NCBI GenBank assembly: GCA_022870745.1
Contig: CP085323.1
Span: 2,170,001-2,234,000, forward strand
Length of the DNA stretch: 64,000 bases
Direction of reading: 5' to 3'
From: Silvibacterium acidisoli
GTDB taxonomy: Bacteria; Acidobacteriota; Terriglobia; Terriglobales; Acidobacteriaceae
Shown: positions 1 to 4,933 of the stretch, piece by piece
Layout of the letters: every line of letters begins with the position of its first letter
How positions within the stretch are numbered: the first letter of the stretch is position 1
The notes under the pieces: generated by a model
Databases searched by the model: none
What the model was told of the DNA's origin: nothing
Seen by the model: only the letters and a program-made list of their open reading frames with translations
Made by a program: the position numbers and the translations under genes

Positions 1-2693
1 GAGATACGGCCCTGCAGGCCATGGGAGAAGTTCTTCGAGATCTCGGCCTGCAACGCGTGATATATGGAACGTCCGTCGGAGGTTGCGTAGTTAATGCTCG
101 TCACTTCCGGAGCAATGTCGTAATAGGGCCTGCGTGTGGTCAGGTCTCCTGGGCCGGGTACTGGCGTGTCGATGTTGTAATCGCGATAGAGATGGATGCC
201 GCGGGTTCCAACGTAGCTAAGCCGGAAAGCCGAGGTTGCAGTGAGCTGCTGCTCGACACCCAGGTGCCAGGCGTATGCATTGTCAGGACGGAAGCTTCTG
301 GGGATCAGGGTCACCGACGAGTTCGGTTGAGGCGTAACCGGTGCATCCGTCGAGATAGGAATAAACCCGGGCAGGCCATTCGTGGTTACGTTCCAGAACG
401 GTGTGTAAGCGAGTTGCTGGTTCACATAATACTGCTGGAAGAACGGGAAATTACGCTCGAGATTGCCACCGATCGCTCCGAAGTTTCCGGGAAAGGTCGT
501 CATGCCGAAGGCGCCGCGAATCGCCGTCCTCCCATCGTTCGGCGTATAAGAGAAGCCGACGCGCGGCGCGAAGTTTCCATAGTAGTTGTCGACATTGGGA
601 GCGCGATTGTCTGAAGTTGCGATATCGAGCAGGCCCGTCTGCAGGTTGAAGTTCGACTGGCGATTGAACTTGTCAATCGCCTGGGTGATCACATCCCAGC
701 GGAGCGCAAGGTTCAACGTGAGTCCCTTTGCCACATGGTATTCATCCTGTGCGTAGATACCAGCCAGATGCGCTCTCGTGGCCGGGTCGGTATCGACGAA
801 TCCGCGATAGAGGGACGACGGGATTCCAAGCAGGTAGCTTGCGAAAGCATTGCCGCCTGAGCTCGTGGTGCAGTCCGGCTGGCCGGTGCAACTGCTGGTG
901 TAATCGGCGTTGAAGGAGAAGCTGCCATTCTGGCTGGCATTCGCGTTGGTCAAAGATGCCTGCAACCTGCGATAGTCTTCGCCAAAGACGAACGTATGCT
1001 TCCCGAGGATCTTCGTGAAGTTATCGGTGATCTGGTACACGTTGGTGATGCGGTGAGAGTTCGTCCAGTCCTGTGACCCGGTCGGAGCGATGTTGCCGAT
1101 GTTGAAGATAGCGAGTCCGGAGGCTCCCGGGAAATCTGCGTTGTTTCCATTAGGAATTCCCAGCGTCGTATTCTCGTTCGTCTGGAAATCGTTACCAAAA
1201 TCCTTCGTGTAGAACCGGTTGAAGCCGAAACGAAGTTCGTTGTTGGTCGTCGCGGAGAAGATATGGTCCCAGCCCACGGCGATGTTGTGGTCGCGCGACA
1301 TGGCATTCACGTCGCCAATCTCAATGAACCGGGTTCCAGGCGATGGTGCAGTCAGATCGCGCCGTTGATAGGATTCGCGCGCAAAGAAGCGATCATTGTC
1401 CCTGAGTTGGTAGTCGACTTTCACATCGAACTGGTGGTTGTTATCCGTCTCCTGCGTATTCGCCTGGTAATTCTGGCTGATGCTGTTTTGATTAGTTGCT
1501 TCCGGCCAGATGCCGGCAGCGCCGACCATCTTGCCTGCGACCGAGTCGAAACGGCTGGAAGGAATCTGATAGGCCGGACCCTGAGGGGTGCTGACGATGG
1601 GAAAAGGATTCCCGGTGGAAGGATCGTAAATCGCTGGAAACTGACTAGTCAGGAAGTAGCCCTGGCGCATGAGATCGGTGGGAACGGTCAGGTTGTAGGC
1701 GATTCCGTTGTTGAGCAGCAATCCCTGGTAATCCACGAAGAAGAAAGCCTTGTTGCGGATGATTGGACCACCGAGAGATCCGCCGAACTCGTTCGATCTG
1801 TACGGAGCTTTGCTCTTCGCCTGCCACTGGATGGCATTCAGGCTGTCATTGCGGAAGTATTCATAGGCGGACCCGTGAAATTCATTCGTACCGGATTTCA
1901 CAAATGCGTTCACCTGCGCCCCGCCATAGGTTCCGACGGTAGCTTCGGCGTTGTTGGTCGAAACCTTGACCTCCTGCAGGGAGTCGAGTGCAGGTGTCAC
2001 GTTAATGAATGCGTTCAGCAGCTCCATATTGCTGACGCCGTCGAGAGTGTAGGTAGTGCCTCCCCAGGGCATGCCATTGACGCTCGCCGAGATAGGCCCC
2101 GCGGCCCCGGCTCCGGCTGCCGCTTCGGGGGCACTGCCGAACCCGGTAGCGACTGAACCCGGTACTGTCTGCACCAATTGCGAGAATACTCGGCCATTGA
2201 GGGGCAGGCTGTTGATCTCGTGGCTGCTCAGCACCTCGCCCAGCGACGAACTGGTGGTGTTCACCAGCGGATTCGACCCCGTCACCTCAACGGACTGCGA
2301 GGCCGTGCCCGGCTGAAGCGTGATGTCCACGCGGGCCACGTTGTCCACAGTCACCACATTTCCCTTCGAAACGACCTTCTGAAATCCAGCAGCCTCGACC
2401 TCTACCCGGTAGGTGCCTGGAGGAAGAAGATTGGCAAGATAACTCCCTTGCTCATTCGAGATGAGGGAGACCGTCTGACCGGTGTCCTGATTGATGACGA
2501 CTACATGCGCACCATTGACGACTGCTCCGGTGGAGTCCTGAATGGTTCCCTGCAGGCGCCCGCTGACGCCCTGCCCGAAGGAAATATGCGTGGAGAAGAA
2601 AAGGCCCAGCACGCACAGGAAAAACATGCGAAGCGACACGCGGAATAGTCGGGATCTCTGCTGGCCCCGGTAATCAATCGTTTGCGAAAACAT
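1..2693 (-). CDS. TonB-dependent receptor, Oar-like (3' end outside window)
   Basis: Outer-membrane TonB-dependent receptor of the large acidobacterial Oar/CarboxypepD-reg type, probably importing an oligosaccharide or other bulky nutrient. About 897 codons are visible and the frame runs off the left edge, so the C-terminal barrel is missing. The ATG at 2693 follows AGGAGG six bases upstream. A basic start precedes a hydrophobic signal segment (about residues 27-45, MFFLCVLGLFFSTHISFGQG). Next comes a carboxypeptidase-regulatory-like beta domain (about 45-130; GVSGRLQGTIQDSTGAVV, YRVEVEAAGFQKV), then a plug domain with LDGVSNMELLNAF and NAFVKSGTNEFHGSAYEYFR, then barrel sequence. A transmembrane winged-helix regulator lies directly upstream on the same strand. 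Family call is firm; the substrate is unknown. Confidence 0.93.
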   Translation of the reverse strand, partial: MFSQTIDYRGQQRSRLFRVSLRMFFLCVLGLFFSTHISFGQGVSGRLQGTIQDSTGAVVNGAHVVVINQDTGQTVSLISNEQGSYLANLLPPGTYRVEVEAAGFQKVVSKGNVVTVDNVARVDITLQPGTASQSVEVTGSNPLVNTTSSSLGEVLSSHEINSLPLNGRVFSQLVQTVPGSVATGFGSAPEAAAGAGAAGPISASVNGMPWGGTTYTLDGVSNMELLNAFINVTPALDSLQEVKVSTNNAEATVGTYGGAQVNAFVKSGTNEFHGSAYEYFRNDSLNAIQWQAKSKAPYRSNEFGGSLGGPIIRNKAFFFVDYQGLLLNNGIAYNLTVPTDLMRQGYFLTSQFPAIYDPSTGNPFPIVSTPQGPAYQIPSSRFDSVAGKMVGAAGIWPEATNQNSISQNYQANTQETDNNHQFDVKVDYQLRDNDRFFARESYQRRDLTAPSPGTRFIEIGDVNAMSRDHNIAVGWDHIFSATTNNELRFGFNRFYTKDFGNDFQTNENTTLGIPNGNNADFPGASGLAIFNIGNIAPTGSQDWTNSHRITNVYQITDNFTKILGKHTFVFGEDYRRLQASLTNANASQNGSFSFNADYTSSCTGQPDCTTSSGGNAFASYLLGIPSSLYRGFVDTDPATRAHLAGIYAQDEYHVAKGLTLNLALRWDVITQAIDKFNRQSNFNLQTGLLDIATSDNRAPNVDNYYGNFAPRVGFSYTPNDGRTAIRGAFGMTTFPGNFGAIGGNLERNFPFFQQYYVNQQLAYTPFWNVTTNGLPGFIPISTDAPVTPQPNSSVTLIPRSFRPDNAYAWHLGVEQQLTATSAFRLSYVGTRGIHLYRDYNIDTPVPGPGDLTTRRPYYDIAPEVTSINYATSDGRSIYHALQAEISKNFSHGLQGRI

Positions 2694-3043
2694 ACGGCCT
2701 CCTAGGCTGCTGCCAGGACCGCGTGTCGCCGGAATGTTCGCATCCTTCACAGGGTGGATCTACCGGCGGACGTTCGAGGTTTGTCAGCAGCGCGAAATCT
2801 ATTGAGCCGGAATGACGATCGTCCAGATAAACGCCGATACCGCACGGCTACAGCGCCCAAAGCTTTTTGCAATCTATAAGAAGCAAAGGTGGTTACGCCG
2901 TTGTTACACGGCGTTACACGAGGCTGAATGTCCTCAAACTCAACGCCTCGATGAAGTGTTTGGCTCCCCGTGGAGCTCAAGGCGCGAGAGTAGGAAGTGG
3001 CAGGATATGCCTCAGCCGATTCCCAGTTGGAAATGGCGATTCG
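2694..3043 (-). other. Intergenic region upstream of the TonB receptor
   Basis: 350 bases lie between the regulator stop (3044) and the receptor start (2693), both genes on the minus strand. I see no credible gene here. The region holds a set of spaced direct repeats (2892-2920, listed separately) and is the likely receptor promoter region. Confidence 0.6.
2892..2920. promoter_or_regulatory. Three GTTACRC direct repeats, candidate regulator binding site
   Basis: GTTACGCC (2892), GTTACACG (2903) and GTTACACG (2913) recur with 11- and 10-base spacing, about one helical turn, on the same face of the DNA. Arrays of short direct repeats at this spacing are typical sites for OmpR/CadC-type winged-helix proteins, and the adjacent gene encodes one. 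ACGCCG and CGGCGT also form a small inverted repeat inside the array. Assignment to that regulator is inference. Confidence 0.45.
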
Positions 3044-4477
3044 CTACTTTGAATGGGGTAGGGGATGGATAGCGGTCAGATCCGTCTTGAGAACCATGTC
3101 GCCCTTTTCAAGCTGGACCCTTACCAGTGCCTGAAAATATGGCATCTCGCCCGTCAGGCTGATACCCTTCGCGGCGAGCGCAGCAGTAAGCGCCTGAATT
3201 CCATCGGCAGTTGCCATGAACCTGGTCACACCCTCGGTACCCTTCGTATCCAGACCACCGAGGACGGCGATGCGGTGGCCCTGAACGACTCCGGGCTGAA
3301 TGGAGATGAGGCTGTAGTCTACCTTGAGCACCTGCGTCTTTGCGTCGCGCTCGGTGTGGTAGGTAGCGCTTTCGCCCTTCTGAGGGTGAGCATTCAGGAT
3401 GACGGCCCGCCATTGCTCGCGGTGACTGTCCGGATTATCGAAAGCGAAGTCGCCCTCTGCAAAGAGCTGCCCTACGGCAACGTTTTGAAAGGGAGACCCC
3501 AGCAGGATCACACTGTGCTCTTGCAGGTCTTCCGGGGTCACGTTGCGGCTGGTCTTGATAATCGGCTTGAGGCCCATCTCAGCAAACAACTGAGCGAGCG
3601 CCGCCACACCCTGGAGTTCGCCCGTGCCGGTATACCCGTCCTCATAGTAGAGAGCCCCGGCGTCCTTAACCAGAGCTGGGTTGGAGGCAAATTGCTGGGC
3701 AAGATGCTCTTCGACCCGGGCGCCGCGGCTGTCGCTCGCGCCCTGCCGGAAGCGAAGGAGATCGTTGGAATCATCGAGCAGGAAGACAGCGTTCGGGTAA
3801 GCGATGATGGGTGCGCGATCTCCCTGAAGAAATGCGGCCCAGAATTTCTTGACCGGATCAACGGAGTTCGCTGAAGCGATACCGATTCCTGTGGCCGAAG
3901 ATTTCGACCGCACGCTGCCGAGAAAGAATCCCGAAATGAGTGCTGCCGCCAGTAGCAGTGCGAGCACCGCTGATTTCAGAAGTGTTGTCTTTCGAGGCAG
4001 TTGCTGATCGACATTAACCGTCGTATCAACTTCGTCAGCAGGTGCCGTGGCATTGGGGTCCTCACGAACGACCGCTTCCGAGGATTCAGGCTTCGGACTC
4101 TCCGCTTCGTCTTTCAGCCGGATCACCGGGCCATATTGCCCTTTTGGGATTTCGATGAGGATACGGTCGTGAATGCCTTCCTGGCCGTAAAAGTCCCGAA
4201 GTTTCTGGCGGAGTCGATGTGTCTGGACGCGAACAATCGTGTCAGTTCTAGGGTCAAAATCGGGCTTCCGGCCAAAGGCCTCCAGACCGATCGTGTATTC
4301 CTTGAGGAAATCGGTACTACCCTCAAGATATCTGCTGACCAGGTAGCGAAGAAGCTGCTGAAGCGTGCTCGAGCCACGCAGGCTGTTCGAGTGGACGATG
4401 CGTTCAACCTGTTGTTGAGCTTCTTCGTCAGAAACCCTGCCGACTTCTGACAGGACGGTGATGGGAGTCTTGAGCAA
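3044..4477 (-). CDS. Membrane-anchored winged-helix (CadC/ToxR-like) transcriptional regulator
   Basis: The protein has an N-terminal DNA-binding domain, one transmembrane helix (SAVLALLLAAALISGFFLGS) and a C-terminal domain of about 250 residues that should be periplasmic. The N-terminal part (LQQLLRYLVSRYLEG, LKEYTIGLEAFGR, VRVQTHRLRQKLRDFY) matches the winged-helix proteins that Acidobacteria keep beside TonB receptors. The topology allows direct signal transduction without a kinase. The start is uncertain: the frame stays open to a TTG at 4663 and an ATG at 4567, but that extension does not look coding. A TTG at 4477 with a weak GGCGA lies close to the conserved domain and was chosen. Likely target: the TonB receptor just downstream. 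The C-terminal domain shows no motif I can name. Confidence 0.8.
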   Translation of the reverse strand: MLKTPITVLSEVGRVSDEEAQQQVERIVHSNSLRGSSTLQQLLRYLVSRYLEGSTDFLKEYTIGLEAFGRKPDFDPRTDTIVRVQTHRLRQKLRDFYGQEGIHDRILIEIPKGQYGPVIRLKDEAESPKPESSEAVVREDPNATAPADEVDTTVNVDQQLPRKTTLLKSAVLALLLAAALISGFFLGSVRSKSSATGIGIASANSVDPVKKFWAAFLQGDRAPIIAYPNAVFLLDDSNDLLRFRQGASDSRGARVEEHLAQQFASNPALVKDAGALYYEDGYTGTGELQGVAALAQLFAEMGLKPIIKTSRNVTPEDLQEHSVILLGSPFQNVAVGQLFAEGDFAFDNPDSHREQWRAVILNAHPQKGESATYHTERDAKTQVLKVDYSLISIQPGVVQGHRIAVLGGLDTKGTEGVTRFMATADGIQALTAALAAKGISLTGEMPYFQALVRVQLEKGDMVLKTDLTAIHPLPHSK

Positions 4478-4843: not shown

Positions 4844-4933
4844 TGGCGGAGGGAGAGGGATTCGAACCCCCGTTGGACTTTCGCCCAAAGCGGTTTTCAA
4901 GACCGCCTGTTTCAACCACTCACACATCCCTCC
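4844..4933 (-). tRNA. tRNA-Ser (UGA)
   Basis: On the minus strand the acceptor GGAGGGA pairs with TCCCTCC and is followed by G and an encoded CCA. The anticodon stem-loop is GCGGT-CTTGAAA-ACCGC, giving anticodon UGA. A long variable arm (class II) and a GGTTCGAATCC T-loop are present. It reads Ser UCA codons. Confidence 0.97.

Follow-up and report, generated by a model that had tools for sequence, protein, structure and literature searches.

A membrane-anchored transcription regulator, a short array of helically phased direct repeats and an Oar-like TonB-dependent receptor lie side by side in Silvibacterium acidisoli, and we consider it likely, with a probability of roughly three in four, that the regulator is a one-component switch which binds the array head to tail and, upon meeting its ligand, activates the receptor gene together with genes for carbohydrate enzymes. 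The initial annotation had proposed that the three elements form one control unit. The comparisons described below bear this out to the extent that regulator, operator-like phased array and receptor form a conserved unit, both among orthologues and in the gaps beside more distant regulators, but the array is not general in the genome. All coordinates are positions in the 64,000-nt window, by which we mean the whole stretch of DNA analyzed, and the features of the locus are as follows.

1..2693, minus strand: Oar-like TonB-dependent receptor, from Pfam matches; it extends past the left window edge to genome position 2169364
2823..2829, minus strand: TATCTGG, the form taken here by the conserved TAnCTRG element, from the alignment of orthologue leaders; read as a putative -10 region
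2892..2898, minus strand: GCGTAAC, array repeat 3, from a motif scan; 69 bp upstream of the TAnCTRG element
2903..2909, minus strand: GTGTAAC, array repeat 2, from a motif scan; 80 bp upstream of the TAnCTRG element
2913..2919, minus strand: GTGTAAC, array repeat 1, from a motif scan; 90 bp upstream of the TAnCTRG element
3044..4477, minus strand: membrane-anchored transcription regulator, 477 aa with a TTG start, from the ORF, hydropathy and a structure model
3047..3865, minus strand: C-terminal alpha/beta sensor domain of the regulator, presumably periplasmic, about residues 205-477, from the model and fold comparison
3899..3982, minus strand: transmembrane helix of the regulator, about residues 166-193, from hydropathy and a helix in the model
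4115..4432, minus strand: predicted OmpR/PhoB-type winged-helix domain of the regulator, cytoplasmic, about residues 16-121, from the model, fold comparison and profiles

The regulator reads from a TTG at 4477 to a stop at 3044, upstream of the receptor and on the same strand. A tRNA-Ser(tga) gene (4844-4933, minus strand) is found just upstream of the regulator. The protein had been described as a CadC-like membrane-anchored regulator, and this is right as to architecture, although no Pfam family matches it at E up to 0.01. Neither Trans_reg_C (PF00486) nor any NCBIfam family matched even when E was allowed to reach 0.1, and a search of the PDB by sequence gave no credible relative. A full-length model built with 50 relatives (pLDDT 84) begins with a helical domain that bears a wing of two strands, continues through a linker of low confidence and a long hydrophobic helix, and ends in an alpha/beta C-terminal domain; modelled alone, the N-terminal domain reached a pLDDT of 93. 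When this domain was ranked with VIA-align, the first eight rows were all OmpR/PhoB DNA-binding domains with Z of 6.3-7.0 (SaeR 7.0, GlnR 6.9, RpaA 6.8, ArlR 6.4), a Z of 7.0 being inside the range typical of unrelated matches. Alignment of its profile with the Trans_reg_C domains of the same genome by hhalign gave an E-value of 4.5e-6 and a probability of 87%, and weak Trans_reg_C matches were found in 29 of 51 relatives of the regulator (best E 7.9e-4). Each of these lines is weak, and it is because the fold ranking, the profile alignment and the family matches agree jointly that we assign the N-terminal domain to the OmpR/PhoB fold, as a probable remote member of the winged-helix group.

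From the topology of the model, the C-terminal domain is presumably on the periplasmic side of the membrane. By VIA-align its fold is similar to that of the BcsB periplasmic region (172 residues, Z 11.1, rmsd 3.8 A) and of the N-terminal domains of GH67, GH115 and GH84 glycosidases, glucuronidase included (Z 8.5-10.3, the 10.3 being over 125 residues), with identities of just 7-14%; it differs from these proteins in having no catalytic domain. The sensor domains of CadC and ToxR are unlike it. Foldseek alone identified neither domain and gave weak E-values (above 0.01 for the C-terminal domain), so that the fold statements made here rest on re-ranking with VIA-align, which covers the families ranked by Foldseek only. 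Two paralogs of 740-750 aa elsewhere in the genome (L040 6227-8455 and L043 4240-6498) have a TolB-like beta-propeller C-terminal domain in place of the alpha/beta sensor.

The regulator and receptor genes are separated by a leader of 350 bp. The initial annotation had noticed in it three GTTACRC repeats with 11- and 10-base spacing, and a motif scan confirmed them at 2892-2919: on the plus strand they read GTTACGC (2892-2898), GTTACAC (2903-2909) and GTTACAC (2913-2919), in steps of 11 and 10. On the coding (minus) strand, the copies are oriented towards the receptor with the consensus GYGTAAC, and their spacing, GTAAC-n5-GTAAC-n6-GTAAC, fits a direct-repeat box of the GTnAC-n6-GTnAC type. 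The single 7-mer shows a mild excess only, with 13 occurrences in the window against 7.1 expected. When the window was shuffled 100 times, the phased pair never arose; across the 5.36-Mb genome it is found as two overlapping pairs at the array and once elsewhere, inside a sulfatase-like ORF. Consensus scans of the intergenic region for sigma-70 promoters and terminators gave no match. A riboswitch or other RNA element in the leader was considered and rejected, as the one Rfam match, a weak one to COG2827 sRNA at 2824-2890 (E 0.046), scored 24.3 bits, far below the gathering score of 49.1.

To follow the unit beyond this genome, we considered a family sample of 200 genomes, in which receptor orthologues were defined by an identity of at least 59% and regulator orthologues by at least 45%. 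A receptor orthologue occurs in 10 of the 200 (the genome of S. acidisoli included), and all 10 have the regulator orthologue as well. Regulator orthologues are present in 10 other genomes of the sample, at 45-64% identity; one of these, G149, is the single genome with the regulator outside the 10 with a receptor orthologue, and it has a receptor of 44% identity that is divergently placed. Leaders behind regulator orthologues number 23, with 9 from the family sample and 14 from the best 80 of 200 relatives in a collection of species genomes, and two of them are duplicates. Two or more phased RYGWAAC-like copies, in steps of 10-12 bp or double that and with gaps of 5 to 7 bp between the cores, are present in 19 of the 21 distinct leaders; the exceptions are L130, which has one copy, and L137, which lies at a contig end and has none.

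A scan of the species genomes with the single regulator protein gave no match, and the relatives in them were found by a later scan with an alignment. The pattern search in the species-genome collection covered 80 loci, the best 80 of 200 relatives, which are all Acidobacteriota by title; by the receptor queries used, a receptor lies within 700 bp at 66 of these 80 and not at the other 14. From the same best 80 of 200 come 60 non-redundant gaps between regulator and receptor, of which 49 adjoin the more distant regulators (38% identity or less, about 30%). A weight matrix trained solely on the orthologue leaders found, in these 49 gaps of the best 80 of 200, 25 pairs of sites with the same direction and a spacing of 10-12 bp, where shuffles gave 0.26. 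Spacings of 20-23 and of 32-34 formed extra peaks, and 151 sites faced the receptor against 34 that faced away. Because many of the relatives share ancestry, such counts are to be taken as conservation and not as 49 independent origins. A 10-12 bp pair is present in 1 of 1883 equal windows elsewhere at the same loci, as against 23 of the 49 distant gaps (best 80 of 200), and at the strict threshold it is absent from the remaining 26. In gaps L139, L142, L143, L156, L169, L178 and others, the 11-bp array is followed some 60-80 bp downstream by a second conserved element, roughly CTGTAACGGTATCAAACCTAGTGAAAC and phased at 10 bp, which might be a promoter or a second operator.

The resemblance of the array consensus to the actinobacterial GlnR box raises the possibility that the array is the operator of some other, soluble OmpR-family response regulator similar to GlnR, and that the membrane regulator acts elsewhere. 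The genome, with 21 Trans_reg_C matches, could supply such a protein. The array, however, tracks the membrane regulator: the 23 of 49 distant gaps with a pair (best 80 of 200) compare with 1 of 40 leaders of receptors that have no adjoining regulator (40 of 48 such candidates were used as controls), and the array stays in the gap between the two genes whether they are co-directional or divergent. A soluble regulator is therefore an unlikely owner of the array, and there is a strong case that the neighboring membrane regulator is its binder.

The alignment of orthologue leaders also suggests where that regulator would act. A TAnCTRG element is found downstream of the repeats in 15 distinct orthologue leaders, and in 14 of these every repeat lies 90-91, 79-83, 69-72, 58-61 or 37-38 bp from it. 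The step of this ladder is one helical turn (11 bp), and arrays are displaced by one step between lineages; the leader that is off the ladder, L132, has two copies that overlap or abut TAnCTRG itself. The element fits sigma-70 poorly, and since it was picked after the alignment had been viewed, we go only so far as to infer that TAnCTRG may be the -10 region of the receptor promoter. The same regulator might bind the array as a repressor that is relieved by ligand. The sequence is compatible with this, and six leaders on the ladder have a repeat 37-38 bp from the -10-like element, but most copies are 58-91 bp upstream of it and in fixed helical phase, as activator sites would be. Repression accordingly seems improbable to us, and we favor activation with moderate confidence.

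A search for the triple array over the 200 genomes gave 18 matches in total, which is the chance level, because the reversed pattern gave 20. Matches were found in 8 of the 11 genomes with a regulator orthologue, in all of them at this locus, against 9 of the 189 other genomes (Fisher p = 6e-8). Among those nine others, L267 (G179:C38:5223-5249) has the array between a regulator of 41% identity and a receptor, on the strand opposite the receptor. It is very improbable that the repeats are a product of chance or a structural feature of the leader with no regulatory role, since, even though the 7-mer alone is not rare and the reversed control equalled the genome-wide total, the position and phase of the repeats are conserved across genera and 8 of the 18 triple-array matches are at this one locus. 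At the level of sequence, the comparison shows conservation of the gene unit, the directional and helically phased array, its fixed register with the promoter-like element, and the co-occurrence of receptor and regulator.

Within the genome of S. acidisoli the N-terminal domain of the regulator is present in 22 copies, and the strongest hydropathy window comes directly after it in all 22. On the basis of ORF calling, a receptor is the immediate neighbor of 17 of the 22 (5 co-directional and 12 divergent), a count for which, in one case, an ORF of 120 aa that overlaps the start of the regulator was disregarded. Three paralogs (L032, L044 and L047) have a receptor two or three genes off, and two (L034 and L039) have none nearby. 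We noticed that 13 of the 22 lie within about 8% of the chromosome (4.91-5.33 Mb), mostly adjoining receptors, which suggests an island of such pairs. A profile of the N-terminal domain, at E up to 1e-8, matched 17 of 149 genomes taken from across the phylum, with 1-19 copies in genomes other than this one; the family is therefore patchy and not universal.

The initial annotation had pointed to the other regulator/receptor pairs of the genome as the place to look for the same array, and for the most part it was not found there. None of the 21 other leaders has the exact pair, the weight-matrix pair score showed no significant excess over the 40 control receptor leaders (p = 0.19), and motif-free repeat and autocorrelation tests on the 21 leaders found nothing. 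At a matrix threshold of 5, a pair is present in 5 of 21 paralog leaders against 1 of 40 controls, and at a threshold of 6 in 0 of 21. The core hexamer TGTAAC occurs in 9 of the 21 paralog leaders (12 copies) against 3 of the 40 controls (3 copies); it ranks first in enrichment among the 2080 hexamers tested in these leaders, with p = 0.0018 if it is taken as a pre-set test.

The receptor starts with an ATG at 2693 and matches CarboxypepD_reg (E 3.8e-19) and the Oar-like barrel PF25183 (E 1.1e-161). Its score against TonB_dep_Rec_b-barrel (PF00593), 26.4 bits, is just below the cut-off of 27, and for this reason "TonB receptor" here means an Oar-like TonB-dependent transporter. The genome has 65 such Oar-like receptors in total (65 of 117 candidates scored; 66 match rows, with one receptor split in two). 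Gene content downstream of the receptor is conserved in part among the 10 downstream regions of orthologous loci that were compared. A protein of about 520-590 aa is found in 7 of the 10, and the one genome's copy that was scanned has no Pfam match. By eye, the version of about 520 aa (L230 2508-4079 and relatives) has a twin-arginine-like N-terminus, and the scanned copy has no NCBIfam match. A protein of mostly 480-520 aa, also in 7 of 10 regions, gave weak trehalase or MGH1-like matches below the cut-off in the two copies scanned, and an alpha-galactosidase-like gene is present in two genomes' downstream regions (the family match was run on one). These genes point to a sugar-related role for the operon, although they do not name the ligand. 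Neither a sigma/anti-sigma pair nor a hybrid histidine kinase is conserved among the neighbors compared, part of which were scanned against families.

In the mechanism we propose, a single polypeptide would join a cytoplasmic winged helix of the OmpR/PhoB type, by way of one membrane helix, to a sensor domain that is presumably periplasmic. Several copies of the regulator would bind the GYGTAAC direct repeats head to tail, at about one helical turn apiece, and, being bound upstream of the receptor promoter, would recruit RNA polymerase. A ligand meeting the sensor domain would turn on the receptor and the downstream carbohydrate-enzyme genes. Such a ligand would most likely be a periplasmic sugar or oligosaccharide, a suggestion that we make with little confidence.

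In ToxR/CadC-like regulators, too, a winged helix of the OmpR type at the N-terminus is followed by a single membrane helix and a periplasmic sensor at the C-terminus, and their genes likewise adjoin the target. The present regulator differs from them in having no Pfam Trans_reg_C match and in having a TonB-type receptor as its predicted target. SaeR, ArlR and RpaA, the OmpR/PhoB response regulators that are, with GlnR, among the closest folds to the N-terminal domain, are two-component regulators without a membrane anchor. In the FecI/FecR system and the HTCS/SusR systems of Bacteroidetes, a dedicated local regulator also stands beside a nutrient TonB-dependent receptor; here, by contrast, sensor and DNA-binding domain share one polypeptide, and we noticed neither a kinase nor a sigma or anti-sigma factor in the unit, the neighbors of which were partly scanned. 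GlnR of actinomycetes has a box nearly identical in sequence and spacing and shares the fold of the DNA-binding domain, but it is a soluble protein with a receiver domain that serves nitrogen genes, whereas the regulator described here has no receiver domain and an N-terminal winged helix followed by a membrane helix. The GlnR box is reported as GTnAC-n6-GTnAC, or t/gTAAC-n6-Gc/aAAC, occupied head to tail (11-bp; PMC10704036). For CadC, a head-to-head arrangement on two AT-rich sites is described (PMC5430869), where we predict head-to-tail binding to GTAAC direct repeats. Because the box matches that of GlnR and CadC binds head to head, we describe the protein as a ToxR/CadC-type regulator with what would be GlnR-type operator logic.

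A survey of transmembrane regulators reports that such proteins are abundant in the Acidobacteriae, and its available text does not contain the word "TonB" (PMC10269533). Winged-helix and TonB paralogs are both given in PMC3174227, in the accessible part of which no link is made between them. In the available portions of the literature searched, on acidobacterial TonB, winged-helix, CadC and PUL regulation and on membrane one-component regulators, we found no description of a unit of regulator, array and receptor, and none of how the TonB-type receptors of soil acidobacteria, of which there are dozens per genome, are controlled. Membrane one-component regulators are already known, but this unit looks like a little-described way to control importers.

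It may be that the unit is one part of a large network particular to the Acidobacteriota. In it, paralogous membrane-anchored OmpR-type regulators, as many as about 20 per genome and each with its own TonB-type receptor, would polymerize head to tail on phased GTAAC-type arrays in fixed register with the promoter, under array codes specific to each paralog; this would amount to a one-component, glycan-scavenging alternative to FecIR and HTCS. We put this idea forward tentatively, at somewhat less than even odds. To our knowledge, work on multi-site tandem binding by OmpR-type domains has dealt mostly with soluble response regulators, and the unit shows how a membrane-tethered domain of this type could use several tandem sites. 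A conserved combination of regulator, operator and receptor would provide a testable rule as to which regulator controls which receptor, the linked sugar enzymes give hints of candidate inducers, and behind the unit there may be a network that extends across the lineage.
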